A stretch of DNA of 64,000 bases from Terriglobia bacterium (GTDB taxonomy: Bacteria > Acidobacteriota > Terriglobia > JAJPHL01), in assembly GCA_021325275.1 (NCBI GenBank), contig JAJPHL010000034.1:62001-126000 (forward strand), written 5' to 3'. The notes under the pieces were generated by a model. That model was not told the DNA's origin, did no database searches, and saw only the letters and a list, made by a program, of their open reading frames with translations. The position numbers and the translations under genes were made by a program. How positions within the stretch are numbered: the stretch's first letter is position 1; each line of letters begins with the position of its first letter. Shown here piece after piece: positions 16,361-20,034 of the stretch.

Positions 16361-16384
16361 ATTGAGCACTCAACCTTGCTCAGT
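16361..16384 (-). promoter_or_regulatory. CIRCE-like inverted repeat upstream of groES
   Basis: Arms TGAGCA (16363-16368) and TGCTCA (16377-16382) are perfect inverted repeats 8 bases apart, and the outer A/T pair also matches. On the minus strand the downstream half reads GAGTGCTCAA, which is the CIRCE half-site GAGTGCTAA with one extra C. The other half departs from consensus. HrcA control of groESL is plausible but not proven from this site. Confidence 0.45.
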
Positions 16385-16450
16385 TACCTATTATCATGTC
16401 ACCGTTCGCACAATGTCAAGCGGAAATTTTGCGAAAATGCCCAAGCCTGT

Positions 16451-16479
16451 TTGCGTTTTGTCGATCGCCGCTGTTATCA
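16451..16479 (+). promoter_or_regulatory. Candidate sigma-70-like promoter for the FkbM methyltransferase
   Basis: TTGCGT and TTATCA are separated by 17 bases, about 48 bases before the ATG at 16527. Neither hexamer is a strong match, and no other candidate was seen in the gap. Confidence 0.35.
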
Positions 16480-16526
16480 TACGGAACGCAAACCGCCGCC
16501 ACCCGGCTCAAAACGTCGACCTATCT

Positions 16527-17303
16527 ATGAGCTTCGCCCTCAACCAAATCAGAAAATACCAGCCGCACTTAGGACTCTACGAATCGTGCCGATGGACGGC
16601 GTCACGGATTTGGAATCTGCGTTTCGGGCAGGACGGAGCCAGCAGCCGCGTGCGACCACCGGCAGCGCCGCATCGCGTGGAGTGCCGTCGTGACAGCACC
16701 GACGAGGTCTGTTTCCACCACCTTTTCATTCGCCGGGAACTTGAAGGTGCGCGAGCGTTCGCCCCTCCGGATTTGATCATGGACCTTGGGGCCAACGTTG
16801 GGTTTGCGTCCATCTATTTGATGAACCTGTTCCCTGCGGCGACATTGATCGCGATCGAGCCCGACCCAGCCAATTTTGAGGTGTGTCGGCGCAATCTGGC
16901 GCCATACGGAAGCCGCGTTCGGTTGGTGAAGGGCGGCATTTGGCACAGCCGAGTACCTCTAGTCCTTTCGCGCGGCACTTATCGGGATGGCGGCGACTGG
17001 AGCGTGGAAGTGCGGGAAGCGCAGCCCGGCGAGACGGGCGACGTAGAGGGCTGGGATATTCCGAGCCTCTTGGCGCTTACCGGCCACACGCGAATCGGCC
17101 TGCTCAAGGTTGATATCGAAGGTAGCGAGCGGGCGCTGTTTTCCACGAACTCAAAAGCGTGGCTGGCGCGCGTCGACAACATCGTGGTGGAGATCCACGA
17201 CGAGCACTGCCATTCGGCCGTCTTCGACGCGATGCAGCCGTACAACTACGATCTCAGCGTCTCCGGCGAATATCAGGTTTTTCGCGGGATCACTCCGAAG
17301 TAG
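16527..17303 (+). CDS. FkbM-family SAM-dependent methyltransferase
   Basis: The 258-residue protein contains the FkbM Rossmann signatures: DLGANVGFASIYL (motif I, SAM binding), IAIEPDPANFEVCRRNL (post-I), GLLKVDIEGSERALF (motif with the conserved Asp and Glu) and IVVEIHDEH. FkbM proteins O-methylate sugars or polyketides and are often involved in surface polysaccharide modification. No glycan genes are adjacent, so the substrate is unknown. The longer frame from 16362 reads through the groES control region; the ATG at 16527 is preferred, though it lacks a clear Shine-Dalgarno. The first ~65 residues before the fold are not recognised. Confidence 0.82.
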   Translation: MSFALNQIRKYQPHLGLYESCRWTASRIWNLRFGQDGASSRVRPPAAPHRVECRRDSTDEVCFHHLFIRRELEGARAFAPPDLIMDLGANVGFASIYLMNLFPAATLIAIEPDPANFEVCRRNLAPYGSRVRLVKGGIWHSRVPLVLSRGTYRDGGDWSVEVREAQPGETGDVEGWDIPSLLALTGHTRIGLLKVDIEGSERALFSTNSKAWLARVDNIVVEIHDEHCHSAVFDAMQPYNYDLSVSGEYQVFRGITPK

Positions 17304-17420: not shown

Positions 17421-17450
17421 TTAGGAGTACCGTTTCGGTAGTGCTATAAT
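17421..17450 (+). promoter_or_regulatory. Promoter with embedded inverted repeat upstream of the KAP-like gene
   Basis: A perfect TATAAT lies at 17445-17450, 22 bases before the ATG at 17473, with a weak TTAGGA 18 bases upstream. Between them is a perfect inverted repeat TACCG-TTT-CGGTA (17428-17440), well placed for a repressor or activator. Confidence 0.5.
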
Positions 17451-17472: not shown

Positions 17473-20034
17473 ATGCCTGTGTCGTCCGCACCTTCGCCGC
17501 ACGTTATTCCTGTTGAGCAAGTCGCCAAACTCTCTCGTTGGGGACGAGTCGCATTGGTCGCGCGCGCTTCGATGCGCACCGTGCCATGGTTTGTTCCCGG
17601 ACCGATGCGGGCGCGCCAGCTCGCACTCGCCGATCTTTTGGCGATTGACGTTTGCAGCACATTAGGAATGCTGGCGGCCACCGGTGGGCGTCAACTCGCG
17701 ACGGCCGTGGCGGAAGCCGCCGCGAATGCCGCGATGGCCGCGCTGGCAGCGCCCGGTCGCGTGCCGTTGCTCCCCACCGATCAAGCGGCGATGCTCGCGG
17801 GACTCACCGTGGAATGGGCCGGCGCGTCGGTGCCTCCCGACGCCCTCGACACGGGATCGGTGGACAACGCCCGCGGCGCGTTCCACGATTTGCAAGCGCT
17901 TCTCGCGATGGGCATGCAGGAGCGGGGCTACGAGTACGCCGTGCCGGCCAATTTCTTTTCGCTCCCTCTGTGGCCGGCGCCTTTGCCCGATCTCCGGGCC
18001 CAGATCGCGCAGTGGGAACAAGTTCTCGCGCCGTTTAGTTTGCTGGAATCCTCGCAGCGCTTCCAGGCGTGCTGCGCCGGACACGGCGTCGATTGGACCG
18101 AAGCGCAGCGCCGCGCCGAAGCCTGGATGCGCATGACAGTGCCAACCGATGCCCTGCCGGTGGCGCCGCCTGGACCGCATCAAGCAACTCCGCGTCCCGC
18201 CGTTTCGGCCCAGCTTCCCGCGCCGCATCCTACATTCGCGAGTGGAATACAGGCGCCGGCTCCTGCTCCCGCGCCCGCGACATCCGCTCCGGCGTCGTCC
18301 GCACCGTCCTGGCAATCGCCGATACCTGGAACGTTGGCGCGCCCTTCGGATACCGAACTCGAAGGACCCCCGACGCCGCTTCTGCGCGTGCCTCCGCCGG
18401 CGCGCAACGCCATCGGCTACGACGACCTGGAACCCTACGCCGACGCCCTGGCATCGTTCATCGACTCGATGGAACCGCGCGCGCCATTCACGCTGACGAT
18501 CCAAGGCGCGGCGGGATCGGGCCGCTCGGTGATCGGCGGAATGTTGCGGAGGCGTTTGGAAGGCAAGCCGGCGTGCCGTTCCACCGAGCCGCACATCACG
18601 TTGTGGTTCGACGCAAGCTTGCCGCGTTCATCGCCCACGCTCACAACGTCGTTGATGCGGGCGCTGGCGTTGGCGCTCGATCGCGAACGCCCTTCGGTAC
18701 AGCGTCATCTTCATCGTCTGCCGCTGGGTTTGCAAACGCCGGTCGCGTATTGGAAGAGCATGGTGAAGATCACGCTGTCGTTGCTGACGATTCTGCTGGT
18801 CGCGGGTGGATTCGCGTTGATGACCCCGGGCCTGCCGCCCGATCTGGTCTCGATGCGCAAGGACATGTTGCAGATTCTCGACCAGTCCATGTTGGGCAAC
18901 GGCTTGGTGTGGGTGGGCGCGTTCGGCGTGGCGGCGGCGTTGGCGACGGCTCTGGAACTGTTTGGATTCCTGTTTCCGCACGGGCGAAAACTGGCGCGTT
19001 ATGTGCGCGACAAACACTCGGCGGAGGAACCCAAAGCGCGCGCGGAATTGGGCGCGCTATTGCGCGCCGGCGTTCCGGCCGGATGCCGCATGGTGGTTTT
19101 CATCGAGAATCTGGAAAAGGCCGGCGTGCTTCGCTCGGCGGAGCTCTTGGATTCGCTGAAGACCACGTTGAAGTTTCCGGAAGTGGTTTTCGTGTTGCTG
19201 ACCGATGCGCAGGCGCTGCGCAAACAATCCGAGGAAGATTCCCAGGCCGTGCGCGGCGGACGCTCCGCGCGACTGGCCGGCGTCGCGAATCTGCAAGTGG
19301 ATTTGCCCGGGCGGGCGGTGGCGCGTCCCGACACCGCATCCTCGCGCTCGAAAGGCAGCAAGGTGGGACACGCCCGCGGCTTCGCGGCGTTTTGGGGACC
19401 GTGGTCGCGTGACTGGCGCGGCGATCGCCGCATCGAAGAAGTGATGCAGCGAACGATGTTCGTGGATCCGCCCTATCTCGCGCCACTGGTGATGCTCGGT
19501 TGGCTCTTGTTCTGCCTGCCGATTACCGCGTTCATCGCCGTGCAAGAGTGGATCTATCCGGCGCGCAACGTGCGCATCTTCAGCCGGTCGCGAGCGGGAT
19601 TATTGGGCCTTGTTCTCACCTTGGCGGTTCTCGGTCACGGCGTGCTGGCGTTCCAAACGATCGACGGCCTCTTGACCAATCTGCACTACGTGATTCTGTG
19701 GCCCGACACGCACCCGTTTTCACTGTGGGTCTTTCTGCCGTTGGAAATTGTGACCATCGGCGTGATCCTATTGTGCGGCGCGCTGTTGGCGCGTGCGAGC
19801 GCCCATCGTGAAACGTCGCTCGTGAAACAAGCGCGCGAAGCGCTGCGAACCAGGCTCAAGGAGATTCGCGCGACGACCAACGATCCGGTGCAAGCGGCGG
19901 CGGCACTGAAGGGATCGACGCGGCTCGGCGATCACGAAGACGTCTTGGTGCGCGAGACGGTGGTGCAGGAGTATCTCACCGCCGAGCCCGATCCGCTGGC
20001 GCGCCTCACCGCGATGACGCGGCTTACGCTTTAG
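17473..20034 (+). CDS. KAP-like membrane P-loop NTPase with an unrecognised N-terminal domain
   Basis: The 853-residue protein has three parts. Residues 1-230 form an alanine-rich helical domain that was not recognised. Residues 231-310 are a Pro/Ala linker (APAPAPAPATSAPASSAP). From about 311 the layout follows KAP NTPases: a P-loop GAAGSGRS (345-352, Arg instead of the usual Lys), two membrane helices inserted between Walker A and B (about 433-450 and 479-501), then a Walker B-like strand RMVVFIENLEKAG (539-551, Glu-Asn where KAP has Asp-Asp). Three more helices follow (about 667-690, 709-727, 752-773). KAP proteins are membrane-associated NTPases, some in phage defence. The changed Walker residues leave ATP hydrolysis in doubt. 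Its stop overlaps the convergent permease gene by 11 bases. Confidence 0.7.
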   Translation: MPVSSAPSPHVIPVEQVAKLSRWGRVALVARASMRTVPWFVPGPMRARQLALADLLAIDVCSTLGMLAATGGRQLATAVAEAAANAAMAALAAPGRVPLLPTDQAAMLAGLTVEWAGASVPPDALDTGSVDNARGAFHDLQALLAMGMQERGYEYAVPANFFSLPLWPAPLPDLRAQIAQWEQVLAPFSLLESSQRFQACCAGHGVDWTEAQRRAEAWMRMTVPTDALPVAPPGPHQATPRPAVSAQLPAPHPTFASGIQAPAPAPAPATSAPASSAPSWQSPIPGTLARPSDTELEGPPTPLLRVPPPARNAIGYDDLEPYADALASFIDSMEPRAPFTLTIQGAAGSGRSVIGGMLRRRLEGKPACRSTEPHITLWFDASLPRSSPTLTTSLMRALALALDRERPSVQRHLHRLPLGLQTPVAYWKSMVKITLSLLTILLVAGGFALMTPGLPPDLVSMRKDMLQILDQSMLGNGLVWVGAFGVAAALATALELFGFLFPHGRKLARYVRDKHSAEEPKARAELGALLRAGVPAGCRMVVFIENLEKAGVLRSAELLDSLKTTLKFPEVVFVLLTDAQALRKQSEEDSQAVRGGRSARLAGVANLQVDLPGRAVARPDTASSRSKGSKVGHARGFAAFWGPWSRDWRGDRRIEEVMQRTMFVDPPYLAPLVMLGWLLFCLPITAFIAVQEWIYPARNVRIFSRSRAGLLGLVLTLAVLGHGVLAFQTIDGLLTNLHYVILWPDTHPFSLWVFLPLEIVTIGVILLCGALLARASAHRETSLVKQAREALRTRLKEIRATTNDPVQAAAALKGSTRLGDHEDVLVRETVVQEYLTAEPDPLARLTAMTRLTL

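Follow-up and report, generated by a model that had tools for sequence, protein, structure and literature searches.

The stretch of Terriglobia DNA analysed here (64,000 nucleotides, hereafter the window) contains, at 17473..20034 on the + strand, a gene for an 853-residue KAP-family membrane protein in which nearly all residues expected of a working NTPase have been replaced. From its sequence, we regard it as probably a retained pseudo-NTPase, i.e. an intact membrane-anchored KAP protein in which NTP hydrolysis would have been lost. The reading frame is very probably a real gene, owing to its frame-specific codon use (log-odds of +0.225 per codon, whereas the five remaining frames score between -0.045 and -0.365), and coding statistics are good across the 853 open codons in each domain except a Pro/Ala-rich linker. 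Its place in the KAP family is indicated by a match of residues 320-591 to the KAP_NTPase profile PF07693 (41.2 bits with a curated cut-off of 20, E 1.6e-10), by helices located between the Walker motifs, and by its grouping with KAP proteins in phylogenetic trees.

The N-terminal region of the protein (residues 1 to about 225) is Ala-rich and comprises a helical domain of residues ~14-225 (17512..18147, +), followed by the Pro/Ala-rich linker of residues ~230-311 (18160..18405, +), where the pLDDT of the structural model is about 30. The KAP core possesses a degenerate Walker A, GAAGSGRS (residues 345-352; 18505..18528, +), which differs from aligned KAP proteins by W347A and K351R, and a degenerate Walker B, VVFIENLEKA (residues ~540-550; 19090..19122, +), in which Asp-Asp is replaced by Glu-Asn at 545-546 and R549 by Lys. 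Between Walker residues 351 and 545 lies a first membrane insertion (18769..18945, +) with hydrophobic segments at 433-451 and 473-491, which are helices in the model; all eukaryotic and some bacterial KAP members have helices at this place. Hydropathy further indicates a second membrane region (19486..19785, +) with segments at 672-690, 709-727 and 753-771. A preliminary description of this DNA had already recognised the Arg of Walker A (GAAGSGRS) and the Glu-Asn of Walker B (VFIENLE), the inter-motif helices as the KAP hallmark, three further helices, and an Ala-rich N-terminal region of about 230 residues with its Pro/Ala linker; all of these are present, with the Walker B string VVFIENLE ending at residue 548.

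The same description had proposed a weakened NTPase, and the loss turns out to be broader than claimed. When the window protein is aligned with 15 further KAP proteins from its phylum, these 15 show no variation at 11 columns, and the window protein is changed at eight of them (W347, K351, W382, D545, D546, R549, K603 and R667), although K603 and R667 sit in a less surely aligned region, where part of the apparent loss may be misalignment. Only G348, G350 and F379 are retained. In chemical terms, several replacements are mild, namely K to R, D to E, D to N and R to K. The residues that define catalytically active KAP NTPases are all missing in the alignment: the Walker A Lys is Arg, the Walker B Asp-Asp is Glu-Asn, and the lid Arg is absent. 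The Pfam match spans profile positions 2-204 of 293 and ends before the KAP lid. For comparison, Walker B reads Asp-Asp, or once Asp-Asn, in 17 KAP ORFs from a motif scan that demanded the Walker A Lys and in which about two pairs represent one gene in two loci. Productive nucleotide binding has probably been lost as well.

Among 61 genomes of the class, a full-length relative was found in one besides the window's own, namely in a MAG of Candidatus Sulfopaludibacter (CAMBFR010000083.1, locus L022:2292-5051). The two KAP proteins are sisters (FastTree 0.983; IQ-TREE aLRT 95.3, UFBoot 95), and the branch of the window protein is 2.3 times longer (1.51 vs 0.67, IQ-TREE). They share the N-terminal helical domain (Smith-Waterman score 124 vs 36.8 +/- 6.7 for shuffles, z 13), the KAP core (z 41; 27.6% identity over 239 columns), the membrane hairpin between the motifs and hydrophobic segments past Walker B. 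By contrast, both motifs are normal in the Sulfopaludibacter protein, Walker A being APWGAGKST and Walker B VDDIER; this protein has a normal C-terminal lid, PRNAKRIINRL, and lacks the long Pro/Ala-rich insert of the window protein, whose C-terminal 253 residues are without significant similarity to the C-terminal part of the sister (z 0.4). Since the sister has intact motifs, the Arg and Glu-Asn variants are most simply explained as a change within a single lineage of what is otherwise a normal KAP type, not as the mark of a separate KAP group. This runs counter to the earlier suggestion of a distinct clade with these variants, as a homologue with normal Lys and Asp-Asp stands in the same clade. 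Because the sole full-length relative found has normal motifs, the window protein is a diverged member of the KAP family and not a new kind of system.

The sister gene also contains a single in-frame TAG (L022:3696-3698), located directly after VDDIERC and flanked on both sides by conserved KAP motifs; it may be a true nonsense change, an error of the MAG or a site of readthrough. Directly upstream of the sister gene lies an ORF for a small membrane protein, with HipA/HipB-like genes farther out on that side.

The N-terminal domain, for which a Pfam search of the window protein revealed no family, had been described as new; it is not private to this protein, since the Sulfopaludibacter KAP protein carries it too. 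It is rare, being present in two of 399 genomes of the class, which belong to different families, with weak matches only in genomes G075 and G174; searches of plasmids gave nothing significant and searches of viral contigs gave no match. A relationship to an Ala-rich helical domain that is widespread and has an 'FGPLWP' motif was considered, but none of the searches supported it.

Structure prediction with AlphaFold2 yielded a P-loop NTPase fold for residues 316-410 and 520-590 (pLDDT mostly 75-93, low elsewhere), in agreement with the KAP fold that had been proposed for the core. The model thus supports such a fold, but not independently of the family assignment, because the alignment supplied (16 sequences) consisted of KAP proteins; prediction from the single sequence reached a mean pLDDT of 42. 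The N-terminal domain was modelled as all-helical with low confidence (pLDDT mostly 30-67). In a VIA-align comparison of residues 311-613, the best structural match was RdrA of RADAR (PDB 8hr8; Z 16.3 over 203 residues, rmsd 3.6), followed by Orc/Cdc6-type ATPases at Z 15.2 and below, while a search with Foldseek alone returned nothing that reached E 0.001, its first entry being RdrA at 1.1e-3. RdrA and the window protein have the NTPase core alone in common, at 10% identity. RdrA is not known to have membrane helices. With the PF07693 family at large, which includes Kidins220/ARMS and PifA, the window protein shares a P-loop core above the gathering score and the helices between Walker A and B; it differs in the lost catalytic and lid residues and in a match that stops at profile position 204.

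As an alternative, the gene may be decaying. The lineage might have acquired a KAP NTPase, lost its use and let the gene drift towards a pseudogene, a reading suggested by the patchy occurrence of KAP genes in the phylum and by two relatives in or near the clade with one in-frame TAG each (the Sulfopaludibacter gene after VDDIERC, and L039 in its membrane insertion); moreover, bacterial members reportedly often turn into pseudogenes, according to the 2004 description of the family. We nevertheless consider such decay unlikely, as all 853 codons are open and coding statistics are good in all domains but the linker. Neutral drift likewise does not yield the observed combination: in simulations that started from the present sequence of the gene (seven divergences, 3000 runs each), an open frame together with at least eight of the 11 residues changed arose in 0 of 3000 runs at each divergence, a result that assumes equal rates across the whole gene and is no substitute for a dN/dS test. 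Because this combination never appeared, the frame is probably kept by selection, and the use of the protein is probably independent of the catalytic residues. An active, atypical NTPase, with the phosphates bound by Arg and hydrolysis supported by Glu-Asn or some other residue, would accord with the retained P-loop glycines G348 and G350 and with the conservative nature of some changes, such as K to R or D to E. It appears very unlikely, however, as Asn stands in place of the otherwise invariant second acidic residue of Walker B, and the protein has also lost the lid Arg, both Trp and the conserved Lys 603. The TAG of L039, a KAP gene of the class (L039:4157-6616, genome G042), lies inside the membrane insertion, and the frame is open before and after it.

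The genomic surroundings bear on a further proposal, that the protein acts on its own at the membrane as a sensor or effector of phage defence. KAP proteins do occur in anti-phage systems, such as Tmn, which has membrane helices (PMC11846954), and QatA (PMC13279940), and the Sulfopaludibacter sister matches the PADLOC models of PifA and QatA through the common KAP domain. The likeness of the window protein to Tmn and QatA consists of the KAP domain and, for Tmn, the membrane helices; it differs from both in that it lacks a defence-gene context and that PifA is the sole defence model it matches, at 16.1 bits and only over residues 321-408. The known anti-phage KAP systems (Tmn, QatA, PifA) would be recognised by a match to the model of the system and by partner genes; apart from this PifA match, neither was seen for the window protein. 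For the six neighbouring proteins scanned, PADLOC gave only a 17-bit mad2 match and one match to an amino-acid transporter model (C3a194, 36.6 bits), by an amino-acid permease that we take as an ordinary transporter, so that none of the seven proteins scanned received a convincing defence assignment. The gene context is one of housekeeping and transport genes, several of them named from a reading of their translations: GroES-GroEL lies upstream on the other strand, the amino-acid permease gene, also on the other strand, overlaps the 3' end of the KAP gene by 11 bp, and elsewhere the window encodes transporters, homoserine dehydrogenase and TonB-type receptors. No defence island was seen around the gene, and no relative of the protein was matched in phages or plasmids. 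Defence is therefore scarcely likely at all, and the sensor role once envisaged finds no support in neighbourhood or PADLOC results. The statement that no same-strand partner gene is adjacent was incorrect as worded, since an FkbM methyltransferase ORF (16362-17303, +; PF05050 E 7.8e-11) ends 170 bp upstream.

Other KAP proteins came to light in these comparisons. A KAP protein of the same phylum (L043:793-2664, G133) matches PADLOC QatA along almost all of its length (484 bits), a 1559-residue protein (L034:1635-6311) combines YCF48-type (PSII_BNR) repeats with a KAP NTPase in which a second membrane insertion precedes the lid, and a Streptomyces plasmid carries an unannotated ORF of 1002 residues from stop to stop (L060:3339-6344) with two P-loops, one Clp-like (GEPGVGKTAVVD) and one KAP.

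Upstream of the KAP gene, an extended -10-like element, TGCTATAAT, can be read 22 bp before the ATG (17442..17450, +), next to the inverted repeat TACCG-TTT-CGGTA (17428-17440). The gene had been proposed to have its own promoter with an operator. A promoter scan found no -35/-10 pair upstream of the gene, and the operator reading was rejected, as inverted repeats with arms of at least 5 occur in the gap at chance level (2 seen vs 1.2 expected, P = 0.33). In the genome, the repeat is present as one exact copy. No RNA families were detected near the gene and no tRNAs in the window.

For the retained pseudo-NTPase that we favour, the ancestor would have been a KAP NTPase of the usual kind, equipped with an N-terminal helical domain for sensing or partner recruitment, anchored by its hairpins at the membrane's inner face and switched as an assembly by its P-loop. 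Loss of the switch in the window lineage may have left a constitutive membrane docking or scaffold protein, whose binding surfaces would be the helical domain and the NTPase-fold core; taken alone, the scaffold role has a nearly even chance of being correct. It is possible, albeit somewhat doubtful, that a KAP membrane pseudo-NTPase with a rare N-terminal helical domain has been selected here, which would show that nucleotide cycling is dispensable for KAP proteins to act. The case is built on two sequences and its weight is accordingly modest. Pseudo-enzymes among NTPase switches reveal which components of a machine are important independently of its chemistry, and the apparently dead member and its sister with intact motifs form a natural pair for asking what the N-terminal domain binds.
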